Under the pieces are notes generated by a model. The model saw only the letters and a list, made by a program, of their open reading frames with translations. It searched no databases and was not told the origin of the DNA. This document shows positions 2,270-32,393 of a DNA stretch of 64,000 bases, in pieces. The stretch comes from Natronosalvus rutilus. Lineage in GTDB: Archaea; Halobacteriota; Halobacteria; Halobacteriales; Natrialbaceae. The DNA lies in the NCBI RefSeq assembly GCF_024204665.1, contig NZ_CP100355.1:2771451-2835450 (forward strand). Reading direction: 5' to 3'. The position numbers were made by a program, and so were the translations under genes. The stretch's first letter is position 1. Every line of letters begins with the position of its first letter.

Positions 2270-3283
2270 TTATATCTGTGCCTGGGTCTCAGGCATAGGC
2301 TCTTCGGTCTCGATTGGAATATCCCTCAGACACTGTGCAATCTCAGTAGCTGAATCGGTGACAGTCATCGCGATCTGGTTGGCGTCACCCAGATCTAATG
2401 CAATGACATCCCGGTCACTGGCGATGGCCTCGAGCATTGAACGGGAAATCCCACCCCACTCGACGCGTGATGGTGCAAGAAGTACGTCACAGGCAGCGTA
2501 GTATCTGGGCATCTCGACGTAGTCGACTGATCCGTGGTGAAAAACATTCGGGAGGCGGGCTGCTCGATCAACGAGGTCATCGTCTCGAGCCGGACCGACG
2601 AGCACGAATTCCCAGTCAGGGAGCAGTTCAGCGGCATCTAAGACGAGATCAACTCCCTTCTTATAGCTAATTCGACCAACGGTGAGGACACGTCTCGATT
2701 CCTGGACGAAAACCGAGTCGATAGCGTCGACATCAGGATTGAATCGGCCAGGTGACGCGATTCGAGGCTCTTCAATTAGCGCTGCACTCGACCACCAGGG
2801 AATCTTTACTCCACCGTACAGCGGAGTGTAAACCCTATCTGCAAGAAAGACACTCTTGCCGATAATGTTGTTCACGAGATAGTCTTTGGCCTGAGAAACC
2901 CCGCTAGACTGTCCGTACTCAGTAAAATTCGACTGGGAGACTCTCGTACACGCTCGAACAGATTCTCCACGTGAACCCAAAAGGACGCCTGGGGCATGCC
3001 AACGAGGCTGTGTAATCTGTCGCACTTCTTTTGGATCGTGATCCTGAATGTATGCTTTGACAGCACTCATACAGGCTTTGATAATGTCGGTTCCTGATGG
3101 CGAACCGATCTCATACCGGCAGACGGAAAACCGTTCATCCTCGAGGATCCATGCTGGCATCTCGAGGTCCTGGTCGACTAAAACATCGAATGAGGATATC
3201 CCTTCTTCCCGGTCGGGTAACGAATCGAGATAGGCTTCCATGTTCGGAGGACATTGTTGCCCTAAAAACAATCCAACTGTCAT
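2270..3283 (-). CDS. GT-B fold glycosyltransferase (group 1 / GT4-like)
   Basis: The C-terminal half carries a typical Glycos_transf_1 pattern: LTVGRISYKKGVDLVLDA, then FVLVGPA, then a PSRVEWGGISRSMLEAIA segment equivalent to the E-x7-E nucleotide-sugar site. The N-terminal half is less conserved, as usual for the acceptor domain. At 337 residues the length is normal. It probably adds a sugar to a lipid-linked or surface glycan together with its neighbours. It is separated from the family-2 enzyme by about 170 bases with no gene. Confidence 0.8.
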   Translation of the reverse strand: MTVGLFLGQQCPPNMEAYLDSLPDREEGISSFDVLVDQDLEMPAWILEDERFSVCRYEIGSPSGTDIIKACMSAVKAYIQDHDPKEVRQITQPRWHAPGVLLGSRGESVRACTRVSQSNFTEYGQSSGVSQAKDYLVNNIIGKSVFLADRVYTPLYGGVKIPWWSSAALIEEPRIASPGRFNPDVDAIDSVFVQESRRVLTVGRISYKKGVDLVLDAAELLPDWEFVLVGPARDDDLVDRAARLPNVFHHGSVDYVEMPRYYAACDVLLAPSRVEWGGISRSMLEAIASDRDVIALDLGDANQIAMTVTDSATEIAQCLRDIPIETEEPMPETQAQI

Positions 3284-3429
3284 GAAAGCAAATTAACACC
3301 CACCTCTCCTAAATCTATTGGCAGAATCGAATCTTGAGTCGTGATATGCTGTGGATCACCGAACGGCTTTAGGGAATGAGAGCGTAGCCACTGTTGAGGC
3401 CCGTCTTCCCTGGCAGGTTACGGGCTTGC

Positions 3430-3621
3430 TTACTCTCGGTTTTTCACGACGGTGACTTCGAGCGCGTGGTGTATCTCGAGATGAGTGTCGATCGCGCGTT
3501 TGACGGCGTCCTGGTAGTCGTTCGCCGATGGCGTACTCGCGAGTAGTTCGTCGGCGGCGTCTTTCGGAATCGTCAGATGGAATCCAACCTTCTCGTCGTC
3601 ACCGTCGGGCTCGTCGCCCAT
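3430..3621 (-). CDS. Small hypothetical protein, 63 aa
   Basis: This short acidic protein has an N-terminal beta-like stretch (KVGFHLTIPKDAADELLA) followed by two predicted helices. The layout vaguely resembles small ribbon-helix-helix or antitoxin-type proteins, but no family signature can be named. It ends just before the AT-rich phased motif region that precedes module A and could belong either to the chromosome or to the element's left edge. No partner gene is adjacent. Confidence 0.5.
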   Translation of the reverse strand: MGDEPDGDDEKVGFHLTIPKDAADELLASTPSANDYQDAVKRAIDTHLEIHHALEVTVVKNRE

Positions 3622-3700
3622 ACGCGACCCACGAAGTGGCGGGCCAATAATCTAGTCCATTCCGTTGCGCTCACTGAAACTGAAGTAAATGGGGAATAAT

Positions 3701-3744
3701 CGAATTGTTTCGAAACCATTCGAAAACAGTCGAATAGAATCGAT
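3701..3744. promoter_or_regulatory. Five CGAA/CGAT motifs phased at exactly 10 bp; start of a gene-free control region
   Basis: The tetranucleotide CGAA starts at 3701, 3711, 3721 and 3731, and CGAT at 3741; two of them sit in the palindrome TTCGAA. The 10-bp spacing puts every motif on the same face of the helix. The gene-free stretch 3622-3964 also holds a 6-bp inverted repeat (ACGGCC 3887-3892, GGCCGT 3901-3906). Placement just before the first gene of module A suggests an operator or iteron array. This is inference from spacing and position only. Confidence 0.55.
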
Positions 3745-3964
3745 TAGCCCCGGAACCTTCATGTATTAGGGAGTTTATCAATACAATAACGGTCATCGTC
3801 AACGACATGTGTCCGGGAAAGGGGCCGTATTGGATCGGACTCTGAATCGGCATCGCCCTGCTTGGTGGTCGATTTGACGAGGCTCTACGGCCCGTAAAAC
3901 GGCCGTGGTACATAGCTACGCTTCTAAGAACCGACGGACAACCGCTCAGATTTCCACGATACCA

Positions 3965-4618
3965 ATGTCAACCTCATCCGCCCATAGTGACGAGTCCGCG
4001 ACTCGCGCGTCTCACGCTCGTGCACAGTACGCCCGCTACGACCACTGGGGCGAATCAGACACCGACAACGAGACAGAGAAACAGGATCTCGTCGGCCACG
4101 ATCCAAACGGCAACGCGGTCACCCAGCAGAAAATCGAGTCGCTCGCGCACCTCTGGCTCAAGCAGACGTCTCAAGAGCCGTTTTTGGATCCGGTCGCCCT
4201 GTGCGAACCGACGGAGAACGGTCAGCACTCAAGTGAGGGAATCAGGGCCGACCTCACCGATCCGGAGGTCTACCCACCGACGGCAAACAGCCAGGTCACC
4301 GCTCGAAGCCAGATGGAAAAGAAGGCACCCTCTTCGAAACGGTGGCGCTACTCCGAGGAGTACGGCCACCTCACTTACGGCGGTATTATCCGTGATCGGC
4401 CGAAGGACAAACTCCTCGAACTCGTCGGGTACGTGAGCGCGAACATCTGGGCGGTAGACGTCCCACCACGAAACCAGCGAGATATCGAAGAGGGCGCTCA
4501 GAAGCTCAAACAGCGCGGCAAGCTTCACGACGTCCAAATCATGCGGCGGGTGGCAGAGTGGATCTTCCTCCCAAACATCCTGCGGGAGGACAAGAAGCGA
4601 GATTTCAGGCGGAAATAA
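3965..4618 (+). CDS. Hypothetical protein, first gene of module A
   Basis: I chose the ATG at 3965 (MSTSSAHSDES...), which follows an upstream in-frame stretch of poor composition. The 217-residue protein begins with about 70 polar, probably disordered residues, then becomes mixed helical with a basic, aromatic C-terminal part (VAEWIFLPNILREDKKRDFRRK). There are no signal peptide, membrane segments or cysteines, so it is likely cytosolic. It ends 15 bases before the large secreted protein, so it probably shares its transcript. No family was recognised. Confidence 0.6.
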   Translation: MSTSSAHSDESATRASHARAQYARYDHWGESDTDNETEKQDLVGHDPNGNAVTQQKIESLAHLWLKQTSQEPFLDPVALCEPTENGQHSSEGIRADLTDPEVYPPTANSQVTARSQMEKKAPSSKRWRYSEEYGHLTYGGIIRDRPKDKLLELVGYVSANIWAVDVPPRNQRDIEEGAQKLKQRGKLHDVQIMRRVAEWIFLPNILREDKKRDFRRK

Positions 4619-8773: not shown

Positions 8774-11170
8774 ATGAAACGACGAGGCTTTTTACAGGCG
8801 ATTGGCACGCTGGCGGTGATGCCGGCGCAGTACGTACCGTTGCTGTCGTCGCCGTTCGGTAGCGACACACTCACCGCGAGTGCCCTCGAACTGGGATCGC
8901 TCTGGCGGCCGAAGCTTACCAGTGACGACCTGCCGACGTTCGGGTCGGCCGGCGATCTCGCGTGGGCGGTCCACTACGAGACTGACGCCGACCTCGAATC
9001 ACTCGAGGCCTGGATTTCCCAGGTCGATGGAGTTGTCGACCTTACACATATTGAGGCGCTGAACACGGAGATAATTCGTGCGCCGACCTCGTTGATGGGT
9101 GTCCACTTCCTCGATCGAGCACTCGGCCGAGGATTGGCCTCGAAAAGCTACGTCACGCGGATCGAGCCCATCGTCGGGTTCGAACGGCCGGAGCCACTCG
9201 ATCTCATTCCAGACCAATCGGAGTTTGATACGCCGGACTATCTCGATCGACGGGGGAACAACTACCCTCTCGATGGGATCGCCTTCGAAACTCGACCGAC
9301 GACGATCGAGGTTGCCCGTAAGAGCCTCGGCGTCAATCGGGCTACTATCCCTGACGACACCGAACCGGTCTCGATCGGGGTCGTAGACTCGGGAGCGAAC
9401 GTCGTTGACGGTCGGGTGTTCGGACGCGGCCAGCGTGGTTCTCCGATCCGGATCGCAAAGGGCGCTCACTTCACGGACACCGGCCGCTCCGAGATCACCG
9501 TTTCTGAAGGGATGGTGACCGCTGAAAACACCACAGAAACCGACTGGAGAAACGCAGAATCCTTCGAAGGGCTGGTTATCCAGGGATTCGAAGAGAACTC
9601 AAGCCTCGTTCTGTCACTTGACGAGATTACGGTGAGCGTTGCGACCGATACCGAGTGGTCGAATGGGACACTGACTGATACAGTCGTCACCAATGGGACA
9701 CTCGAGTTAGCCACCGACGCGGAAGGGAACTACCTCACCAGTGGGACCTACGAATCCGAGTGGCACGACCTCGGCGAAGAGGCTTCCCCGTCGAATTTCA
9801 CCAGTATCGAGACGCTCAACTCTCAAACGATCACCTACGAATTCCGAAGTGCCGACGACGCGACCGGAACGAACGCGACCGCGTGGCAGACGGACATTAC
9901 GGCGCTTCCGAACACGCAGTTCCTCCAGGTACGGATCACTCTCGAGACCACCGATACCACGACAACGCCGACGGTCGATGACTACACATCAACGGCCACG
10001 GCAACCGCTGATGCCACTTATGTCGGTGACACGCACTATCTACGATCCATCGATTCTGGCTCAGCAACGCTCGAGAACGTGGCTGACGTGATGGCGACAC
10101 TCACACTCGAGGGGAGACCGGATAGCGAGACCGCATGGGAAACGATCGACGAGGTAACGGCCTCAGGTAGTGGTGAACACGCGTTCGACCTCAGCACGGC
10201 TGGGGCCGATCTCGAGCAGTGGCGTGTGTCGATGACGGTGACGCCTGACGTACCCGAGAGCGCCACACTCGAGCTCCAGGCCGAACAGGTCACTTCTCCT
10301 GTCCAGGTTCAAAACGGTGAATCGGACTGGGACCCGATCAAGGACGGCAACGATCACGGGACGTGGTGTCTGTCGGCGATGGCCGCTGATCCCGGTGACG
10401 ATGCTTACACCGGCCTCACGAACGGCACCGATCCGGAACTCGTCGTCGCCAGAGCCCTCGATGTCGATGGGAGTGGCTCGACGGCGGCGATAACGAACGC
10501 GATCGTCTGGTGTACCGACCAGGGTGTCGACGTACTCAACCTCTCGCTGGGATCGTACGTCTACAGCGAGACACTCGCAGACGCCATCGAATACTTCTAC
10601 GAGAACGGCGGGAGCGCCGTCGTGGCGGCCGCCGGAAACGATCGACAGGTAACCCGGACGGTCAACACGCCCGCTTCTCTCGAGTCGGTGATCGCCGCCA
10701 ACGCGACGACGAACTCGCCACCGAGTGAAGCGCGTGTTTCGAACTTCGGAAACGTCGGCCCTTCTGATGGTGTGGCTGACCTTTCGGACGGGAAGACGCA
10801 CGGTGTCTCCGTCGACGTGGCCGCGCCGGGGATGAAACTCGAGGCGTTACTCGCGACGACTGGCTCGACTCGGACCCGCCGGTCAGAACTCTCGGGGACC
10901 AGTATGGCGTCTCCGCTGGTCGCGGCTCTGGTCGCGATACTACTGGCCGCCGAACCATCACTCAAAGGTGACCACGAGGCTGTTCGAGAACGCCTTCTCG
11001 AGAGTTGTGAACCTATCCCGAAAGCCGGCGAGACGGAGGTCGGTGCGGGAATGCCACAACTCGATCGTTTGCTCGAGGGCGACCCGCCCGATGAAACCCA
11101 GGTCGACGTCCAAACGTCGGCAGCAGACTCGAGAGATACAGTCAACCGAATTTTGAGCGGCAATCCATAG
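8774..11170 (+). CDS. Subtilisin-family serine protease with a ~320-residue insertion between catalytic Asp and His
   Basis: A Tat-like signal (MKRRGFLQAIG) starts the protein. Catalytic residues are visible as Asp205 (SIGVVDSGA), His528 (NDHGTW), oxyanion Asn622 (AAAGND) and Ser710 (GTSMASP). In ordinary subtilases the Asp and His lie a few dozen residues apart; here 323 residues of Thr- and Ser-rich, beta-strand-like sequence intervene. The N-terminal 190 residues resemble a propeptide region. It should act outside the cell and may mature or release the neighbouring secreted proteins, or cut host surface protein. It sits between the two paralogous Tat genes. Confidence 0.9.
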   Translation: MKRRGFLQAIGTLAVMPAQYVPLLSSPFGSDTLTASALELGSLWRPKLTSDDLPTFGSAGDLAWAVHYETDADLESLEAWISQVDGVVDLTHIEALNTEIIRAPTSLMGVHFLDRALGRGLASKSYVTRIEPIVGFERPEPLDLIPDQSEFDTPDYLDRRGNNYPLDGIAFETRPTTIEVARKSLGVNRATIPDDTEPVSIGVVDSGANVVDGRVFGRGQRGSPIRIAKGAHFTDTGRSEITVSEGMVTAENTTETDWRNAESFEGLVIQGFEENSSLVLSLDEITVSVATDTEWSNGTLTDTVVTNGTLELATDAEGNYLTSGTYESEWHDLGEEASPSNFTSIETLNSQTITYEFRSADDATGTNATAWQTDITALPNTQFLQVRITLETTDTTTTPTVDDYTSTATATADATYVGDTHYLRSIDSGSATLENVADVMATLTLEGRPDSETAWETIDEVTASGSGEHAFDLSTAGADLEQWRVSMTVTPDVPESATLELQAEQVTSPVQVQNGESDWDPIKDGNDHGTWCLSAMAADPGDDAYTGLTNGTDPELVVARALDVDGSGSTAAITNAIVWCTDQGVDVLNLSLGSYVYSETLADAIEYFYENGGSAVVAAAGNDRQVTRTVNTPASLESVIAANATTNSPPSEARVSNFGNVGPSDGVADLSDGKTHGVSVDVAAPGMKLEALLATTGSTRTRRSELSGTSMASPLVAALVAILLAAEPSLKGDHEAVRERLLESCEPIPKAGETEVGAGMPQLDRLLEGDPPDETQVDVQTSAADSRDTVNRILSGNP

Positions 11171-11174
11171 ACCA

Positions 11175-12227
11175 ATGACGACGAACACGAACACGATATC
11201 CAGACGCGACGCGATGAAAGGCGCGGGGGCAGCCGCCGGAGTGCTGGCTGGCGTTCCTCAGCTCACACGAATCGTCTCAGCGACCGACTCGGGCGACCCG
11301 GAGCTCACACTCTTCGGAACGATCCCCTCTGACGGACAGATCGACGTGACGGTCGAAGAGTACGATACCGAAGGCTCTGAGTCACCGTTGAATACGGAGA
11401 CGGTGACGGTCACAGACACCGGATCGGCCCACCCACTCGAGAATATCGACGGTGCTGGGAGTTACTATTACGTCCACGACGGGACGCTGACGCGCGAGTC
11501 AGATTCACCGGAACTCGAGACACTTCGGCTCGAGATCCCGGCAGATCCCGAGGACTTCGATAACGTCGATTATACGGATGTGTTGGAGTGGGAGCACAAA
11601 GCCGAATCGACGACGATCGAGTACGACGAGTGGTACCTTCGGAACTATCAGCCTCAGCTCAACATGGCGCTCGAGGAGCGCGACCGGATGAACGGGATGT
11701 ACGCCTACGTTGCCCGCTCAGAAGAAGAGAACACGGACGTCCTCTGTTACTGGGTGTACCTCGACCGAGAATCGGAGGCAGATGAGAAAATCCGAACTGG
11801 GAGCGATCTCGGCGATCACCAGCCGATCTACGTCTTTGTCAACGACGCTGGAAAGGTCGAGAAAATCGTCTACTCGGCGTTCCACTGGTACACGGCGACG
11901 ATCACACCAGGACCGGATGTACTGTGGCAGGATCGAAAAGACGATCCAGCGCATGCCGCTTTCGAGATGACGCCACACGGACACTTCATGTTTAACGCAA
12001 CCGAACCCGGAGACTTCTACGAACTGAAGCCGTGGCCCGAAGTTCGAGACGTTTGGAAGAATAACACGTTCTACTCGCGCTCGAAACCGAACACGATCGA
12101 GAACCCGTGGGAGATCGGCGCTCACGACCACTGGTGGGCTGAATCGTTCGACACGCTGTATGATCGATTGTACGTAAAACTTGGTCAGTGGTTCGGATGG
12201 TACGGAGCGGACGAGGCAGACCTTTAG
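11175..12227 (+). CDS. Tat-exported protein A2 (350 aa), paralogue of the gene at 7913
   Basis: The N-terminus has SRRDAMKGAGAAAGV, a twin-arginine signal ending near residue 37. An extra beta-rich domain (about 40-140) precedes the part shared with the 7913 protein. The shared motifs run in the same order: DVLCYWVYLDR, DHQPIYVFVND, FHWY, NPWEIGAHDHWW and WFGWYGADEADL at the very C-terminus. It begins 5 bases after the subtilase stop, so the trio A1-protease-A2 is one operon. Aromatic and His clusters may bind a ligand or metal; function is unknown. Confidence 0.75.
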   Translation: MTTNTNTISRRDAMKGAGAAAGVLAGVPQLTRIVSATDSGDPELTLFGTIPSDGQIDVTVEEYDTEGSESPLNTETVTVTDTGSAHPLENIDGAGSYYYVHDGTLTRESDSPELETLRLEIPADPEDFDNVDYTDVLEWEHKAESTTIEYDEWYLRNYQPQLNMALEERDRMNGMYAYVARSEEENTDVLCYWVYLDRESEADEKIRTGSDLGDHQPIYVFVNDAGKVEKIVYSAFHWYTATITPGPDVLWQDRKDDPAHAAFEMTPHGHFMFNATEPGDFYELKPWPEVRDVWKNNTFYSRSKPNTIENPWEIGAHDHWWAESFDTLYDRLYVKLGQWFGWYGADEADL

Positions 12228-13569: not shown

Positions 13570-14610
13570 ATGTTCAACCTGAACACCAACAGAGCACTGT
13601 CCGTCTTCATGATTGCCATGCTAGTCTTCTCGGCTAGCCTGGCGTTCACCGGCGGCGCGCTCGCAACCGAACCCACAGTCGAAACCAGTTCCGACCTGCA
13701 AGATGGCGGTACCTGGGCCGACTTCAACGCATCGTCCGATGACAACAAGCTCATCGAATTCAACAACGCCGACGCCGCAGACGGCGCCCTCGTCGTCTGG
13801 GACCCCGAGACTGGCGACACTGCCGAGGAGGCACAGTCCCACCTCGAACTCGACGGCGATGACGACGAGTTCGAAACCGTCGACGACACGAACAGCATCT
13901 ACGGCTTCAACATCACGGCCGACCAGCTCGAGACGGTCCCGATGGAAGCCAGCGAGAACAAGACCGTTCACATGACGATTGCCAACCAGAGCGACTGGAC
14001 GGCTGACAACGCTAACACGACGACCATCGAGGTCACCATCGACAACACGATGGAGCGTTCCGTCATGTACGTCGGCGACTATCAAATCGAGAACGAGGTC
14101 TACGGCCTCGAGCAGACCGACGAGGACGGCATGTTCGGTATCGAGTACCTCGCGGATCGGTCGACGTCGCTCGACACCACCCGAGACATCGACGGCTCGA
14201 ACACGACCATCTACACCTACCTCGCCGAGGACACGGCTCAGACGCACTTCGAGGACGACCTCGGCGAACTCGACGATGGTGAGTGGACCACGTCGACGCT
14301 GACGATGCTCGACGACTCGGCGGTTCGCAACTACGCCGAGCTTCCGGACGACCTCGACAGCGAGACGTCGACGCTCAAGTACGACACGTCCGGTTCGACG
14401 GACGCACTCGTCCTCGAGCCCGGCAACGACTACGACGGCGAGACGACGATGGACGTCAAGGTCGACACCGACCCCTCGTGGTGGGAAGCGACCCAGGCGT
14501 ACGGCTTCAATCCGCTCGGCTACGATTTCAGCATCCCGTACCTGACGGGCTTCGCTGGTAGCTCGCTGTTCGCCGGCGGCCTCCTGGTCTCTCGACGGCC
14601 TGCGTACTAA
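13570..14610 (+). CDS. Secreted or membrane-anchored acidic protein (346 aa)
   Basis: A signal peptide (SVFMIAMLVFSASLAFTGGALA) ends near residue 33. The mature ectodomain of about 290 residues is very acidic and beta-rich with several N-x-S/T sites. A glycine- and leucine-rich hydrophobic stretch (about 325-341) before RRPAY can serve as a C-terminal membrane anchor. The single-anchor ectodomain layout is like a surface or particle protein. About 80 bases separate it from the next gene. No family match was recognised. Confidence 0.7.
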   Translation: MFNLNTNRALSVFMIAMLVFSASLAFTGGALATEPTVETSSDLQDGGTWADFNASSDDNKLIEFNNADAADGALVVWDPETGDTAEEAQSHLELDGDDDEFETVDDTNSIYGFNITADQLETVPMEASENKTVHMTIANQSDWTADNANTTTIEVTIDNTMERSVMYVGDYQIENEVYGLEQTDEDGMFGIEYLADRSTSLDTTRDIDGSNTTIYTYLAEDTAQTHFEDDLGELDDGEWTTSTLTMLDDSAVRNYAELPDDLDSETSTLKYDTSGSTDALVLEPGNDYDGETTMDVKVDTDPSWWEATQAYGFNPLGYDFSIPYLTGFAGSSLFAGGLLVSRRPAY

Positions 14611-14690
14611 GCACCGACTTCTGACCACCAACGCGACACGTTCTTTCGGTATCCAGGCCGAGCGGGGGTTCAACCGCCTCGAGAGCGCCT

Positions 14691-15095
14691 ATGGCTACTC
14701 GAACAGCCACCGACCGAAGCACCGCCACCGTCACCCGGACGGGCGACCGAACCCGGACCGACGCACTCGCTGACCTCGTCGCGACCGTCTCCGAACAGAT
14801 CGGCTTCCCGACGATCGACCCCGTGAGCGTCGACGGCCGGTTCCTCACCGATGAGGATGGCGTCTTCCGGAAGGTGTGGACGCGCGCAACCGGCGAGGAC
14901 TACGAAGAGCGTATCGTCGCCCGCTCGCCGTCGCTGCTGGCCGGCTGGCACGTCTACCACCAGACGCCCGACGGTCGGGAGCACTGCGTGACTGACGATC
15001 GCCTCGAGCGTGAGGCCGCCTTCGAGGAAGCCGAAAGACTCGCGGCCGATATCGAGTCGGTGCCGATCGAGTGCCGGACCGGGAGGGCAAGCTAA
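14691..15095 (+). CDS. Hypothetical cytosolic protein, 134 aa
   Basis: The protein is acidic, without signal or membrane helices, with an Arg/Thr-rich N-terminus and a helical C-terminus (REAAFEEAERLAADIES). It overlaps the next start by one base (TAATG), so it is coupled to the following membrane protein. It may be an adaptor of the small membrane gene set, by context only. Confidence 0.6.
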   Translation: MATRTATDRSTATVTRTGDRTRTDALADLVATVSEQIGFPTIDPVSVDGRFLTDEDGVFRKVWTRATGEDYEERIVARSPSLLAGWHVYHQTPDGREHCVTDDRLEREAAFEEAERLAADIESVPIECRTGRAS

Positions 15096-15361
15096 TGAGC
15101 ATGCGAAAACAGGCGATCGTCCGCCTGTGGGCGCTCATCTGGCAGTTCACGGTCGGGTACGTCCTGACGATCGTGGTCATGATCGTCGGCAACATCTGGA
15201 TGGTGATCGACCTGCTCTGGCAACTCCTCCTGGGCAGTGAGGGTCTGAGTTCGGGTTCGTCGGTCGGCTCGTATATCGAGTCTTTCTGGATGTGGAGCGC
15301 GGGCCAGACCGTCTTCGCGATGACTGGCGGCGGCGACGGCAAGTGGCGCGCACTCCCGTAA
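15095..15361 (+). CDS. Small membrane protein, 88 aa
   Basis: I chose the ATG at 15095 (MSMRKQAIVRLW), which overlaps the stop of the gene before it. One long hydrophobic segment (FTVGYVLTIVVMIVGNIWMVIDLLWQLLL) could span the membrane once or twice. The C-terminus is a short Gly/Ser-rich tail. This is the first of several small membrane proteins between 15 and 19 kb that probably form a membrane complex. Confidence 0.65.
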   Translation: MSMRKQAIVRLWALIWQFTVGYVLTIVVMIVGNIWMVIDLLWQLLLGSEGLSSGSSVGSYIESFWMWSAGQTVFAMTGGGDGKWRALP

Positions 15362-15377
15362 CCCCGCACTGGCGGTA

Positions 15378-15403
15378 TCGAGGTTCGACTCCTCGAGCGG
15401 GCA
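15378..15403 (+). other. tRNA T-arm-like hairpin followed by a 7-base stretch and A
   Basis: A perfect 6-bp stem (TCGAGG/CCTCGA) encloses the loop TTCGACT, which fits the tRNA T-loop consensus, and is followed by AGCGGGC and A, like an acceptor strand and discriminator. No matching 5' half is present upstream, so this is not a tRNA gene. It lies in the 44-base gap between two genes. It could be a captured tRNA 3' end (attachment-type sequence) or a plain hairpin. Confidence 0.4.
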
Positions 15404-15405
15404 TT

Positions 15406-15750
15406 ATGAGCACAGATACAACCAACGACGTCGCTCAGACCCACGTCGAATCGCCCGACGACCTGGTAGAGGCATCAAAGACCGATTTCGCCGACTCAGC
15501 ACTCATCGATTTCAACATCTACATGCTGCTTATGACGGCCTGTGGGTTCTTGGGCGGCGTACTTTTCACGGCCGGCTGGTTCGGGGTGTCGCCTCTCGTG
15601 GAGTACATCCCCCAGGCTGGAATAGGCGCGCTGGCCGTCGTGGTTAGTGTCGGTGGACCGCTCGGTATCTACCTGGTACTCCGGTCCGATTACCCGGACG
15701 TGTTTGGAACGCTTCGGCAAATCCCCTCCCGAATCAACAACGATGACTAA
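15406..15750 (+). CDS. Small two-helix membrane protein, 114 aa
   Basis: The ATG at 15406 (MSTDTTNDVAQT) gives an acidic N-terminal tail of about 35 residues. Two membrane helices follow (YMLLMTACGFLGGVLFTAGWFG and IGALAVVVSVGGPLGIYLVLR) and a short C-terminal tail. The in-frame stretch upstream is composition-poor and unlikely to be translated. It ends about 250 bases before the next Tat-type gene, so an operon break may lie between them. Confidence 0.65.
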   Translation: MSTDTTNDVAQTHVESPDDLVEASKTDFADSALIDFNIYMLLMTACGFLGGVLFTAGWFGVSPLVEYIPQAGIGALAVVVSVGGPLGIYLVLRSDYPDVFGTLRQIPSRINNDD

Positions 15751-15865
15751 CAATATGATCGAGTTCTCGGGTCCGAAAAACGCCACCCCACGCGTCCTAC
15801 TCGTCTGAGCGAATCGCGCCCTCGTCTCGAGGCGCGCAACAAATATCGGGACAGGTGTTGGCCTT

Positions 15866-15888
15866 CGACGCTGCTTTTCACAGCGTCG
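15866..15888 (+). terminator. Stem-loop in the 15751-15996 gap
   Basis: CGACGCTG (15866-15873) and CAGCGTCG (15881-15888) form a perfect 8-bp stem with a CTTTTCA loop, followed by GGCTTTC. It may end the upstream transcript or structure the leader of the next gene. The rest of this gap contains no gene that I can support. Confidence 0.4.
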
Positions 15889-15996
15889 GGCTTTCAGAGA
15901 CACCGAATCCGACAACGCACAGCGAATCCAATCACCTGGGGCCTCCTCTTCAGCCCTTCGCGCAACCTTCCGCACCACTCTTTCAGTACCAGAATC

Positions 15997-16659
15997 ATGA
16001 AACCCAACACCACCAGACGACGGTTCATCCAGGCCTCGGGCCTTGCGGTCGCGACGACCGGGGTCTCGATGCCTGTGAGCGCACAGACAACCGACTCAAC
16101 CCAGGGCATCCTCGCCGACGGCATCACCTACGAGCCCGATTACGGGGCGTTCGCCAGTGGCCTCTTCTCGGGGCGGGTATGGCGACCGAAAGACCTCGAG
16201 CAGACCGTCGACGACGCTCGAAACGAGTTCCGGGCCAACAGCGACCGCTGGGTGTCCTACGGGAACTGGTTGCTCGAGGAGGCCGACGTCTCGCCCTACG
16301 GCAACGCCGAGATCGGCGTCACCTTCAAACACGACTATTTCCTCAAATCCGAGGAAACCACTGAGACCACGGTCGTCGCCGACTACGACGACGCGACCGA
16401 CCGCTTCACCGACCTCGACTGGCTACTCGAATCCCCGGAGGACCCGGATTTCGAGGTGACGCTGACCAACAACACCGCCGAGAACGCCTCGGACGAACTC
16501 TCGGAGTTTCGTCGGAAGTTCATCGACGATGACGGCGACGATCACGAGCTCCCCTCGAACGAATACCTCAACACGATCGCCGGGAAGTACGCATTCGCGA
16601 TCGGGGTGGGTGAGGACGCGAGCAACGTCCTCGAACTGCTCCTGGGGTGGTCGCCATGA
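15997..16659 (+). CDS. Tat-exported hypothetical protein, 220 aa
   Basis: The N-terminus TRRRFIQASGLAVATTG followed by SAQTTDS is a strong twin-arginine signal cut near residue 31. The mature domain is acidic and mixed alpha/beta (SGLFSGRVWRPKDLEQTVDDARNEF, VTFKHDYFLKSEE). The C-terminus is a short hydrophobic segment (NVLELLLGWSP). It is coupled by ATGA overlap to the next membrane gene. It is the fourth Tat substrate of the module and is not obviously related to A1/A2. Confidence 0.7.
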   Translation: MKPNTTRRRFIQASGLAVATTGVSMPVSAQTTDSTQGILADGITYEPDYGAFASGLFSGRVWRPKDLEQTVDDARNEFRANSDRWVSYGNWLLEEADVSPYGNAEIGVTFKHDYFLKSEETTETTVVADYDDATDRFTDLDWLLESPEDPDFEVTLTNNTAENASDELSEFRRKFIDDDGDDHELPSNEYLNTIAGKYAFAIGVGEDASNVLELLLGWSP

Positions 16660-26808: not shown

Positions 26809-29013
26809 CTACCTCTGACGCCCGAATCTTTCTGCCTCTCCTGCAAACATGACGTCTCTCAAAATGCGTTCGACGAGGTCGTCATGGGAGAGGTCATCGT
26901 AATCATCGTACCGCTCTCGCAATTGGGCCTCCTGCCCTGCAGTAAAGTAGAGATCTAGTTTCTCGTCGGCCTCTGCGGCCGGTACAGAATCGGCTGCCGT
27001 ACTTATTGCTGCCGACTCACTCGTAACCTCCGACTCCGACTCGGTACCAGAAACCACGTCGTCAGACGAGACGTCGCCCTCCGTCTCTCGAGACGACCCT
27101 TCCTCGGCGGTTTCCCTAGCCTGCTCTCTATCGTCCTGAGAGTCCGAAGAGTCCGACCCGGGCAGGTATTGGTCAACCTCTTCTCGGGATTCAACGACGG
27201 TGAGGTCGTCAATATCAATCCCGTACGTCGATTTGAGAGCAGCCACATAGGTTGGCCATTTCCACGCCGTCATAGCGCTCTCTGCAAGGCGAATCTCGTG
27301 CCGGGCATGGGCCTCGGCCTCCTCCGAGATGTCCTCGATCACCTCTTCGACTTTCGTCTCGAGGTCATCAACGTCGTCGAATTCGAATTCGTCTTCGGGA
27401 CCCGTATCGACCAGTGTGAGGCGCTGTTTCTGGTCGCTCTTATAGTTCTCCTCGAAGTGACGTTCGAGTTGACCTTTGAACGATTCATCGACACAGTCGT
27501 ACTCATCGGTATAGAGCCACTCGCTACGTTTTTCTTCGGGATCCCAGTCGTCGGGGGGCGTCCAGAGGTCTAGTCGCTCTGTTTCCGCTATGGTTCGGTC
27601 CTCAGTGGGTGGCGTATGGACACCGAGGTACGCGGGTTGTTTGCTTTCGTGGAACGCCGCGGGGTGAGCAATTCCCAACTTAGCGTGGATCGCGACGTGG
27701 TTTTTGAACTCGGCTGTTTCTGGATACTCCCAATTCCGACTGGTCGAGGGGCTTCGCCCGGGTTTGTGATCACTATCGATGCGCTGGCGACCGCGATAGT
27801 TGTAAACCTTCCATTCCCCTTTGTTATCCGCGTAGGGACTGTTCTGGGGATATGGCTTGAGGATGGGAATGGGTACTTTCCCAGTTTTCGCGTCGAAGTA
27901 TGCCCGTGTCGCGTTCTTGATCTTCCGGTAGGCTTCCCTTGCCATCTCGTCGTCCGGATTGATTCCGGTCTTTGACGTGTTGAACGGGAGGTCCTCTGCA
28001 CTTTCCGTGGACCACATGTCGGCACGGATGACGAGTCGTTTGTCACCCGTGGCGGGGTTAAACTGGTTCAGCCCGCCCCTGACACCAAATCCAGCTTCCT
28101 CGTCAGTACGGTTTGAGAGTATTTTCCGACCGTTTGCATACAACGTAACGCCGGACTCGTCCGAATCGGCTTTTGTTTTCAGCCCGACCCGGACGTCCAT
28201 CATTACGTCGCCTTCGTAATCCCCGGTCGAAGGCCGGAGAAGAAGTTTCGGGTAACACCGCGGATAGAGGCCGTCGAACGGGGACCAGCTCAGTGAAAGG
28301 TCACTTTCGGCGGTAAGCGGATCACCGTTGATGGAGATGTTTACCTGAACGTCACGGGACTCAGGGAGGTCGTCGGAAATATATAGGTCGTACGTGTCCG
28401 CGAGATATTCGTCAAGCGGCTTTTCGACATCATCGGAGACATCATCGGCACCCATTTCCCGCCCCCAGGCGAATTTCAGATCCTTGATCTCGATGACGGT
28501 AGTGCCCTTGGATTCAGAGAGATCTTCGTGGGCCTCGAGGTCGGTGATTTTGGATACGGAGTATTCACGCTTCTCCTCATCGTGAAGCCACTCGTCGATA
28601 TCGATGGTGAGTTCGGATCCAGCGTCAGCCAGCTCGAAGCGTGTATATACCGTAAGTTTGTGTCCAAGCGCGACTGATGCGCGTTTGAGGCCGATGCCTG
28701 CCCAGCCGATGGAATCGTAGTGGTCTTCACTTTGGACACTATCACCGAGGCTGAAAATCGCTTCCAGGTCTTTGGGTGGTATCCCGCCACCGTCATCGAG
28801 GATTCGGAGAGTGTTGGTGGTTTCGTCGTACTCGATATCGATGTTGATCTGGTCTCGGAACCCGTAGCGCTCTTGTGCGTCGATTGCGTTGTCAACGAGT
28901 TCACAGATTGCCCCACGAGTAGAGATTTCTTTGGCTAAGTTGGCCCATACCGCCTTGTTTGCCCCGAATGTGACCTTTTCCGGAATTTTATGTAGGTTGG
29001 CGTCGTTAGTCAT
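26809..29013 (-). CDS. GHKL (HSP90/MutL/MORC-like) ATPase, 734 aa
   Basis: The Bergerat ATP-binding fold is clear: N-box ELVDNAIDA (Glu38, Asn42), G1 box DDGGGI (about 73-78) and G2 box GIGLKRAS (about 106-113). The arrangement is closest to MORC/HSP90-type proteins rather than histidine kinases. A middle beta-rich transducer region, acidic helices and a ~70-residue acidic linker follow, ending in a small helical domain (FTAGQEAQLRERYDDYDDLS). MORC-type ATPases in prokaryotes often pair with nucleases in defence or DNA-management systems. Here a possible nuclease is divergently encoded across an operator-like repeat. Confidence 0.85.
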   Translation of the reverse strand: MTNDANLHKIPEKVTFGANKAVWANLAKEISTRGAICELVDNAIDAQERYGFRDQINIDIEYDETTNTLRILDDGGGIPPKDLEAIFSLGDSVQSEDHYDSIGWAGIGLKRASVALGHKLTVYTRFELADAGSELTIDIDEWLHDEEKREYSVSKITDLEAHEDLSESKGTTVIEIKDLKFAWGREMGADDVSDDVEKPLDEYLADTYDLYISDDLPESRDVQVNISINGDPLTAESDLSLSWSPFDGLYPRCYPKLLLRPSTGDYEGDVMMDVRVGLKTKADSDESGVTLYANGRKILSNRTDEEAGFGVRGGLNQFNPATGDKRLVIRADMWSTESAEDLPFNTSKTGINPDDEMAREAYRKIKNATRAYFDAKTGKVPIPILKPYPQNSPYADNKGEWKVYNYRGRQRIDSDHKPGRSPSTSRNWEYPETAEFKNHVAIHAKLGIAHPAAFHESKQPAYLGVHTPPTEDRTIAETERLDLWTPPDDWDPEEKRSEWLYTDEYDCVDESFKGQLERHFEENYKSDQKQRLTLVDTGPEDEFEFDDVDDLETKVEEVIEDISEEAEAHARHEIRLAESAMTAWKWPTYVAALKSTYGIDIDDLTVVESREEVDQYLPGSDSSDSQDDREQARETAEEGSSRETEGDVSSDDVVSGTESESEVTSESAAISTAADSVPAAEADEKLDLYFTAGQEAQLRERYDDYDDLSHDDLVERILRDVMFAGEAERFGRQR

Positions 29014-29770: not shown

Positions 29771-30138
29771 CTACCGTAGACCTCGGTGTCCTACTCCGCG
29801 AAGCTGACGACATGGGCGTCTCCACCGTTGTTGCAGAACGAACTGAACTTGCCCACGGCGAACTGGCGCTCATCATCTACGGTGATGACGAGGCGAAGAA
29901 TCTGCTGTCCTACCAACTCGCCGCCGTCGACTCCGTTCGTGTCCTTGGCCACCAGTACCGCCTCACGGCGAACGCTATCTCCGCATCACTTCGGACAGCG
30001 GATTCAGCAGAGGATGACCTGCTCCTCCTCGACGACGAGCGGAACCCCGCAAGCGGCGTCCTAGCGCTCGCCCAGCACGCCGCCGTACAGGAGGCACAAG
30101 CCGGGTACGGGGAGGTGACGGCTATCCATGGCGAGTGA
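29767..30138 (+). CDS. Hypothetical protein, 123 aa
   Basis: It starts with a GTG overlapping the previous stop (GTGA) and ends inside the start of the TFB gene (11-base overlap). The protein is mixed alpha/beta, with helix LGVLLREADDMG and strand ELALIIYGDDEA, and lacks cysteines or signals. The tight coupling suggests it works with the nuclease-like protein or TFB. Confidence 0.6.
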   Translation: MTTVDLGVLLREADDMGVSTVVAERTELAHGELALIIYGDDEAKNLLSYQLAAVDSVRVLGHQYRLTANAISASLRTADSAEDDLLLLDDERNPASGVLALAQHAAVQEAQAGYGEVTAIHGE

Positions 30139-31105
30139 TCCACGGGACGACTCTGCTACGACGGATCCTGGTCTAGCGGCCCCTGGCAACGCCTGTCCGA
30201 ACTGTGAGCCTGGAATACTCGAAAGCGGGCGCAGTGAGACGTACTGCGACAACTGCGGGTACACGGTCAACACCACGAACATCGACCCCGGCCCAGAGTG
30301 GCGCGCATTTGACGACGACAGCGAGGACCCATCGAGGGTGGGGGCGCCGTCGACACCTACACTTCACGACAAAGGCCTTTCCACTACTATCGGTCACTCG
30401 ACCGACGACCAGCAACTCGGTGGGGATCAAAATGGTGACCGCCGCCAGCGGAAGTTGAACCGCATCAGTCAGACGCGCAACAGCCGAGAACGTACCCTCA
30501 GGGAACTACTATCGGAAAATAAGCGCATGTGCGACGCCCTCGAGTACGGGAAAAACGTCGAGGAGACGGCTAGTGTCATCATCCGGAAGGCAGTTGATGA
30601 GGAACTCCATCTAGGCCGCTCGATAGAGGCAGTCGCATCAGCAGCTGTCTACGCGGCTGCACGTATCGATAGCCGTCCGTGCGCGTGGGAAGACATCGTC
30701 ATCATCTCGCGCCTGGAGGACGAGGGTCGGATAGTACGCACATACAAGGCGTTGAACCGCGAACTTGCCCTCGAAGTCGAGCCCCCCAGCTACCGCACCC
30801 ACGTTAACCCTGTCGCCGAGAAACTGAACACTGCGATCAACCTCGCTGGTGACGAGGAAGATGACAATATTGATGAGGAACCTGGGAAGGTAACGCGTGA
30901 GGATCGCCTGGCCGCACAACAACTTGTAGAGAAAGCACAACAGACAGGGGCCGCGTCCGGAAAAGATCCTCGCTGTCTCGCGGCAGCAGCGATCTACGTA
31001 GTTCTTGAAGACGAGTTCACCCAACGGGAGTTCACCGAGTACGCGGCTATCTCACGACCGACACTCCAGAAACACGCCGCTGAACTACGCGACCTACAGG
31101 ATTGA
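30128..31105 (+). CDS. Transcription initiation factor TFB, element-encoded
   Basis: An N-terminal zinc ribbon has CPNC (23-26) and CDNC (40-43). Two cyclin-like repeats follow (about 110-205 and 215-325), with typical helices such as EETASVIIRKAVDEELHLGRSIEAVASAAVYAAAR and the second-repeat CLAAAAIYVVLEDE. TFB recruits RNA polymerase to TATA/BRE promoters. At 325 residues the length is normal. Haloarchaea carry several TFBs; this one is translationally coupled to two element genes and likely redirects transcription to element promoters. Confidence 0.9.
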   Translation: MASDPRDDSATTDPGLAAPGNACPNCEPGILESGRSETYCDNCGYTVNTTNIDPGPEWRAFDDDSEDPSRVGAPSTPTLHDKGLSTTIGHSTDDQQLGGDQNGDRRQRKLNRISQTRNSRERTLRELLSENKRMCDALEYGKNVEETASVIIRKAVDEELHLGRSIEAVASAAVYAAARIDSRPCAWEDIVIISRLEDEGRIVRTYKALNRELALEVEPPSYRTHVNPVAEKLNTAINLAGDEEDDNIDEEPGKVTREDRLAAQQLVEKAQQTGAASGKDPRCLAAAAIYVVLEDEFTQREFTEYAAISRPTLQKHAAELRDLQD

Positions 31106-31274: not shown

Positions 31275-32393
31275 TCATTCGTCGTCGAACACCTCGCTCA
31301 CGTCTTCACCCAGCTCACTTGCTTCGATATGAGAATACATCTGCGAGGTCGTCTTCGGATCGGCGTGGCGGAGCATCCGTTGAGCGGTCGCGGCGTCGCG
31401 CTCGCGAAAGAGCGTTTCGCCGACGCCTCGACGAGCGCCGTGTAGCGTGAGATAGTCGCCGTCCTCGAGGTCGGGGATGTCTGCCTCCTCGGAGAACCGT
31501 TTCAACAGTGTGCGTACGCCCGATGTCGAGAGCGACGGCGGTTCGATGCCGGTCTCGAGGACATACTCCCACGGATTGCCCTCCGGTTTCTCGTGTCCGG
31601 CGTCATCGATCGCCCCGTACAGCGACGGAGGATGCCGAGAAGGGAAGACCGGCCACCCGTCGGCCGGCGGGTCGACGATCTGGTACAGCCGCTCGAGAGG
31701 CGCGACCGCCTTCGACGTGAGTGGCGTCTCTTCGCGTTGCTGGTTCTTCCCCAGGACGGTGATCGTCCCGTCCTCGAGGTCGACGCTGTGCCATCGGAGG
31801 CCGTTACGCCGGACGTCGTTCCGGTCGGCGAGGATCTCGGCGCCGCGTACGCCCGAGTACGCGAGGACGGTGACGAGCGCCCGGTCACGAACTTCCTCGA
31901 TAGCGTCCGATCCTTTCTCGTCGATCGCTTCCCGAGCTCGTTCGTCGACGTAGTTCACGATCGCCCGGCGCTGCTCGACGCTCCAGAACTGTTGATCGCC
32001 GCTGTTCGAGGACGGACGCGGCGGCATGTCGTCTTTCGCGACCTGTTTCTCCGCCGGGTTCTCCGCGAGGTAGTCATATTTGACTGCCCAGGAGAGGAAC
32101 GCCGACACCTGGTTGTAGTAGGTCCACGCCGTCGAGGCGGCGATTCCGCCGTCGACGTCCTCCGACTGGCCCGCTTCGACGCGCCGATCGAGATGGGCGG
32201 CGTAGTTCCCCATCGTGCGTTTGCTCACGCCCTCGAGCGTGTCGACGCCACGATCGTCACACCAACTGATCCACTTCTCGAGCACGCGGTCGAGATTCTT
32301 CGCGTAGTTCCCCGACTGGCGCTCGAGGAACTCTGCCTTCGCGTCTTCGAGCCGTTTTCCCTGGGGTGCAGGCCCTGAATTGCTGGTTTCCAT
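31275..32393 (-). CDS. Tyrosine recombinase / integrase (XerC/D family), 372 aa
   Basis: Catalytic residues are visible: Arg183 (YSGVRGAE), a beta-hairpin Lys near 216, His318 and Arg321 (LHGARRG), His343 (LRHADPKT) and nucleophile Tyr353 (MYSHIE). An N-terminal SAM-like core-binding domain covers about 15-115. The length is normal for a complete, probably active enzyme. Its 3' end faces the 31.1 kb junction between modules, as expected if an attachment site lies there. It probably integrates and excises the element. Confidence 0.92.
   Translation of the reverse strand: METSNSGPAPQGKRLEDAKAEFLERQSGNYAKNLDRVLEKWISWCDDRGVDTLEGVSKRTMGNYAAHLDRRVEAGQSEDVDGGIAASTAWTYYNQVSAFLSWAVKYDYLAENPAEKQVAKDDMPPRPSSNSGDQQFWSVEQRRAIVNYVDERAREAIDEKGSDAIEEVRDRALVTVLAYSGVRGAEILADRNDVRRNGLRWHSVDLEDGTITVLGKNQQREETPLTSKAVAPLERLYQIVDPPADGWPVFPSRHPPSLYGAIDDAGHEKPEGNPWEYVLETGIEPPSLSTSGVRTLLKRFSEEADIPDLEDGDYLTLHGARRGVGETLFRERDAATAQRMLRHADPKTTSQMYSHIEASELGEDVSEVFDDE

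Follow-up and report, generated by a model that had tools for sequence, protein, structure and literature searches.

A stretch of 64,000 nucleotides from contig NZ_CP100355.1 of the haloarchaeon Natronosalvus rutilus (hereafter the window) carries an array of 10-bp repeats between two divergent genes, one encoding a 63-amino-acid (aa) ribbon-helix-helix (RHH)-like protein and the other opening an operon related to genes of the vesicle-forming plasmid pR1SE. Judged by its sequence and setting, the array looks like a series of sites bound by the neighbouring repressor-like protein, and we consider it likely that it constitutes a multi-dimer RHH operator through which the 63-aa gene regulates itself and controls the pR1SE-like vesicle operon, with repression of both being the most likely outcome. 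Array and protein would together probably form an on/off switch of the vesicle-related cluster, and it is the vesicle operon probably under its control that makes the array of interest. We found no description in the literature of what triggers plasmid-vesicle formation in haloarchaea; with the present work a candidate regulator and its operator can be named for more than a dozen related elements, some of which are on sequenced plasmids, and the question of such a switch becomes directly testable.

A phased repeat array lies between two divergent promoters

A first-pass annotation of the window had pointed to five CGAA/CGAT motifs at exact 10-bp spacing, and direct reading of the sequence bears this out: CGAA starts at positions 3701, 3711, 3721 and 3731, and CGAT at 3741. 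Because a T precedes all five motifs, they share a core TCGAW that is repeated in five units across 3700-3744. The 10-bp units are all nearly palindromic about a central CG, an architecture that would suit a single symmetric dimer every 10 bp. The array also reaches approximately 40 bp beyond the annotated left edge, toward the minus-strand small gene, in the form of weaker units. In an unbiased, motif-free scan for self-similarity at lags of 10, 20 and 30 bp, its left edge falls at ~3654 and the segment 3654-3743 ranks first in the window (z 6.0). The annotation had further proposed that one-turn phasing places the motifs on one face of the DNA, which holds roughly and not exactly, since a unit of 10.0 bp set against 10.5 bp per turn drifts slowly around the helix.

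Phased arrays of this type are not common in simulated sequence, which settles one of the checks that had been suggested for this region. None of 60 windows simulated with an order-4 Markov model contained at least four phased CGAA/CGAT motifs at 10 bp, and four in a row arose at 0.05 per simulated window even when all periods from 5 to 21 bp were summed. The five-unit TCGAW pattern occurs a single time in the 4.3-Mb genome of the host and, among 125 genomes of the family, in only one other (G022), where it is a simple tandem repeat of TCGAAGCATC. Collectively, the simulations, the pattern counts in family genomes and the window scan rule out a chance origin of the array.

The array sits in a 343-bp intergenic gap, with the minus-strand 63-aa gene to one side and a plus-strand gene of 217 aa to the other, and occupies the interval separating their predicted divergent promoters (Table 1). 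It adjoins the operon whose first gene starts at 3965 and does lie, as annotated, at the start of the module. Its strongest units are on the operon side, with weaker ones leading to the TATA-like box of the small gene. The distance of 33 bp between this box and the ATG suggests that the predicted small-gene transcript is leaderless or nearly so.

The array accompanies the regulator gene across haloarchaeal elements

With the window protein as query, homologues were found in 9 of 125 family genomes, its own included; with the family profile as query, a search of 392 genomes from the order gave matches in 17 at E below 1e-9. Many of these homologues reside on circular plasmids, mostly of Natrialbaceae, among them pHALXA03 (Halopiger xanaduensis), pHTUR05 (Haloterrigena turkmenica) and plasmids of Natronosalvus halobius, Halosolutus gelatinilyticus, Halomontanus rarus and Natrinema sp. 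DC36. A homologue of ORF5, the first gene of the operon, divergently adjoins the small gene in 15 of the 17 genomes.

Arrays recur at the same place upstream of the regulator homologues, so that the second condition suggested as refuting the operator, absence from homologous elements, does not hold. Between -132 and -42 upstream of 18 homologues, self-matches peak only at lags of 10, 20 and 30 bp, with combined z-values of 11.5, 9.3 and 8.0 (the next highest lag, 22, reaches 3.7), values that overstate significance because the homologous upstream regions are related and not independent. Six stretches surrounding the gene, from related plasmids or contigs, all have the array itself as their strongest 10-bp-periodic segment. 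Its register relative to the TATA-like box is likewise conserved: at seven loci CG steps recur at -98, -88, -78 and onward to -28 of the box, and 36 of 72 fall in one of the ten registers.

The letters of the repeat drift between subgroups, from TTCGAA in the window to TTTGCGAG/TCGCG in pHALXA03-type plasmids and TTCAG/CTAA/GTTTTCAAC in the MGDEPVG group. A phase that holds while the sequence differs speaks against simple descent from a common sequence, and drift of this kind is what joint change of DNA and protein would produce. Natural variants of this kind, in which operator letters change at fixed spacing and TATA-like box register, should be useful for learning how RHH proteins recognise DNA.

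The presence of the array follows that of the small gene. In scans of 500 bp upstream, five operons with the small gene scored 3.2 to 6.3, and operons lacking it mostly stayed between 0.3 and 2.6, apart from two that reached 3.3 and 3.6. pR1SE has neither the small gene nor the array (best score 1.5), though its ORF5 is present. Regions upstream of cdrS, which encodes the best detectable relative of the 63-aa protein outside its own family, gave periodicity scores of -2.2 to 1.9 and are without such an array. Because the background percentiles of upstream-region scores include the array copies themselves, the resulting p-values are conservative. What we find here, an evenly spaced repeat array beside the regulator's own promoter, is one arrangement expected of a multi-dimer RHH operator.

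Profile links suggest a ribbon-helix-helix-like fold for the 63-aa protein

By profile comparison, the 63-aa protein appears to belong to an RHH-like family linked to CdrS. In whole-genome searches with the family profile, those weak additional hits that were inspected are CdrS proteins; CdrS in turn matches Pfam RHH_1 at 1e-9 to 1e-8, and direct profile-profile comparison of the two families gives a probability of 92.8 (E 4e-7). A match to a structure in the PDB, 2kke, was obtained at E 0.047. The N-terminal stretch shows alternating hydrophobic residues before a conserved proline, the pattern of an RHH strand. Predicted DNA-facing positions vary between subgroups, and these differences would be in line with the different repeat sequences. 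CdrS itself differs from the 63-aa protein in being a chromosomal cell-division regulator (PMC7439475), and the cdrS genes tested lack the upstream 10-bp array. Phage records and the viral contigs searched contained no related proteins.

The adjoining operon is related to the apHPV plasmid-vesicle cluster

pR1SE is described as a plasmid that spreads between cells in plasmid-encoded membrane vesicles, and the apHPV family was defined using homologues from Haloterrigena turkmenica and Halopiger xanaduensis (PMC10818511). Because the operon following the array matches ORF5, ORF7 and ORF8 of pR1SE, the window module is, by sequence comparison, a chromosomal relative of the apHPV cluster. The criterion given for apHPV is at least five of ORF6, 8, 17, 21, 23 and 24 (PMC10818511); of these, ORF8 was matched in the window by direct sequence comparison, as were ORF5 and ORF7, which stand outside the list. 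An ATPase encoded further along the module is likely the counterpart of the VirB4/HerA-like ORF25 of apHPV; one comparison with a cluster-2 protein gave no match. In contrast to the window, pR1SE contains neither the RHH-like gene nor the array, and the passages of the apHPV paper drawn on here (PMC10818511) are silent on a regulator or operator.

A proposed multi-dimer operator and its alternatives

Archaeal RHH factors are reviewed as occupying strong distal sites first and then oligomerising over degenerate sites toward the B recognition element (BRE) and TATA box (PMC5569661). The strength gradient of the array matches this spreading, and we propose on that basis that it serves autoregulation and control of the vesicle operon, likely by repression. 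Each partly palindromic 10-bp unit would be the site for one dimer of the 63-aa protein. Dimers would first occupy the strong CGAA units, those closest to the promoter of the operon, before spreading cooperatively across the degenerate units toward the TATA-like box of the small gene, such that occupancy would govern both divergent promoters. Were both repressed, as seems most likely, vesicle production would remain off or low until the protein falls in level or is displaced. A bolder version, which we regard as possible but doubtful, is that this is a family-wide and previously undescribed master switch, in which an RHH-like protein and a bidirectional array decide between silence and vesicles, protein and repeat co-evolve at fixed spacing, and elements carry mutually exclusive, immunity-like specificities.

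Several observations weigh against the multi-dimer operator. Activation, too, could be served by sites upstream of a core promoter. The arrays of four homologues (L031, L033, L036 and L040) are weak, with scores of 1.0-1.7, and the shared ancestry of the upstream regions tempers the combined z-values given above. Two Halomontanus rarus strains carry, on plasmids, an identical 66-aa regulator with clearly diverged arrays (L085 and L086), and no phase-dependent conservation was detected between these two plasmids (p 0.91). Pfam gave no significant direct RHH match for the 63-aa window protein, and its AlphaFold model is poor (predicted local distance difference test score, pLDDT, 53) and unusable for a fold search, showing at low confidence two helices (H20-28 and H36-60) and no strand; because of this, assignment of the RHH fold rests on the profile links and the residue pattern.

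The Halomontanus pair is also a useful natural experiment on which array bases matter. At L040 (G065 chromosome, ~1501), a truncated copy of the small gene still has its TATA-like box, with in-register CG steps at -58, -48 and -28, and looks like the relic of another integrated element.

The foremost alternative, which we judge unlikely, is that the array is an upstream activating element at which the RHH-like protein or a host factor activates one or both divergent promoters. In its favour, the strong sites cover neither box, being placed 48-88 bp upstream of the TATA-like box of the small gene and a short way ahead of the promoter of the operon, and the RHH protein AmrZ is reported to act as both activator and repressor (PMC3325190). 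On the other hand, SvtR, an RHH factor of an archaeal virus, uses upstream sites to repress its own promoter (PMC5569661), and the degenerate units of the array run to within ~20-30 bp of the TATA-like box.

Of the two functions named in the first-pass annotation, operator or iteron array, the first is supported by the divergent promoters, the RHH-like gene, the recurrence of the array, its shared register at seven loci and its absence, together with that of the regulator gene, upstream of pR1SE ORF5. The second, by which the array would be an iteron-like replication origin of a plasmid ancestral to the integrated element, strikes us as very unlikely, though an additional part in replication is conceivable. 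The array does precede ORF5-ORF6 genes, and repeats before ORF6 in some plasmids are reported as possible origins (PMC10818511). It follows, however, the regulator gene and its TATA-like box and not a replication gene, which disfavours this explanation; the adjacent gene is not replicative. Moreover, pR1SE replicates without the array, the Orc/Cdc6 gene of pHALXA03 is several kb away from it, and pHTUR05 has the array yet is listed without Orc/Cdc6 (PMC3528665).

A centromere-like site, with the RHH-like protein acting as a ParG- or omega-type partition protein, would account for contiguous repeats, as RHH partition proteins bind such arrays and parS of pSM19035 requires at least four contiguous heptads (PMC9499535). 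We hold this to be highly improbable: no annotated ParA-type gene lies beside the RHH-like gene in the relatives inspected, the conserved neighbour is the vesicle operon, and the position of the array is fixed relative to the promoter box. Bending by phased A/T tracts, with no protein sites involved, is hardly credible, for although T and A runs alternate with CG every 10 bp in the window and the first plasmid group, the MGDEPVG group keeps the phase despite poorly developed tracts, and the array goes with one gene family and is absent upstream of cdrS.

The array resembles known RHH operators

As a multi-dimer RHH operator, the array would be of an already known kind. MetJ recognises 8-bp met boxes, near-palindromic contiguous units that presumably bind one dimer each, and omega/ParB of pSM19035 likewise uses contiguous short repeats (7-bp heptads), presumably also with one dimer each. 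The window array differs from both in its 10-bp period, its haloarchaeal hosts and a core sequence that varies between subgroups at constant phase. Closer to hand, the archaeal viral regulators SvtR (SIRV1), AvtR (AFV6) and F55 (SSV1) are small RHH proteins, borne by mobile elements, whose binding sites are close to their own promoters, with strong distal sites and spreading over weak ones to BRE/TATA (PMC5569661), much as we infer for the 63-aa protein. The motifs listed for SvtR and AvtR are imperfect inverted repeats, and F55 has two tandem repeats (PMC5569661), in contrast to the contiguous 10-bp array of ~5-8 units in the window, which is common to divergent promoters.

Further features of the window

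Table 1. Coordinates of the array, its flanking promoters and the associated genes in the window.
Feature	Position	Strand	Remarks
Gene for 63-aa RHH-like protein	3430..3621	-	MGDEPDGDDEKVGFHLTIP...; proposed array binder
TATA-like box of small gene	3644..3654	-	TAGATTATTGG; conserved; starts 33 bp before ATG (homologues, 33-36 bp)
Degenerate continuation of array	3660..3695	-	CCCCAT, TTCAG and GTGAG units, toward the small gene's TATA-like box
Five strong 10-bp units	3696..3745	-	minus-strand reading AATCGATTCT ATTCGACTGT TTTCGAATGG TTTCGAAACA ATTCGATTAT; CG at centre of each; partly palindromic
Promoter-like stretch of operon	3751..3780	+	CGGAACCTTCATGTATTAGGGAGTTTATCA; conserved in several relatives (alignment of related operons); abuts last CGAT unit
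Long non-coding operon leader	3781..3964	+	partly conserved in relatives (alignment)
Operon first gene, 217 aa	3965..4618	+	pR1SE ORF5 homologue, E 2e-17
Large exported protein, 1091 aa	4634..7909	+	in pR1SE ORF6 position, by synteny
S8 (subtilisin-like) peptidase	8774..11170	+	pR1SE ORF7 homologue, E 1e-36
pR1SE ORF8 homologue	11175..12227	+	E 4e-14
P-loop ATPase, 744 aa	19242..21476	+	weak similarity to pR1SE itself, E 5e-5

Beyond the operon lie genes for a GHKL-type ATPase (26809-29013, minus strand), transcription factor B (TFB; 30128-31105) and a tyrosine integrase (31275-32393, minus strand), and the element-borne TFB might affect the element's own promoters. The element with its integrase lies in a 3.8-Mb contig; a search for flanking direct repeats that could represent its attachment sites produced no convincing pair. 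An Rfam search of 3200-4200, which includes the operon leader, returned zero matches. Within the leader, the pieces GGTCATCG, GGGGCCGTATTGGATCGG, GGTTGGCGAGGC and AGCTACGCTTCT are conserved across relatives. Some 50 bp on the 3' side of the small gene (3378-3430; GAGCGTAGCCACT...CCCGTC...GGTTACGGGCT...CTTACTC) are conserved in plasmid relatives and capable of forming a hairpin, possibly a terminator or structured RNA. On the Halosolutus gelatinilyticus plasmid (L028), cas1, cas2 and cas4 are found at 14564-16195, ~6 kb downstream of the regulator gene.
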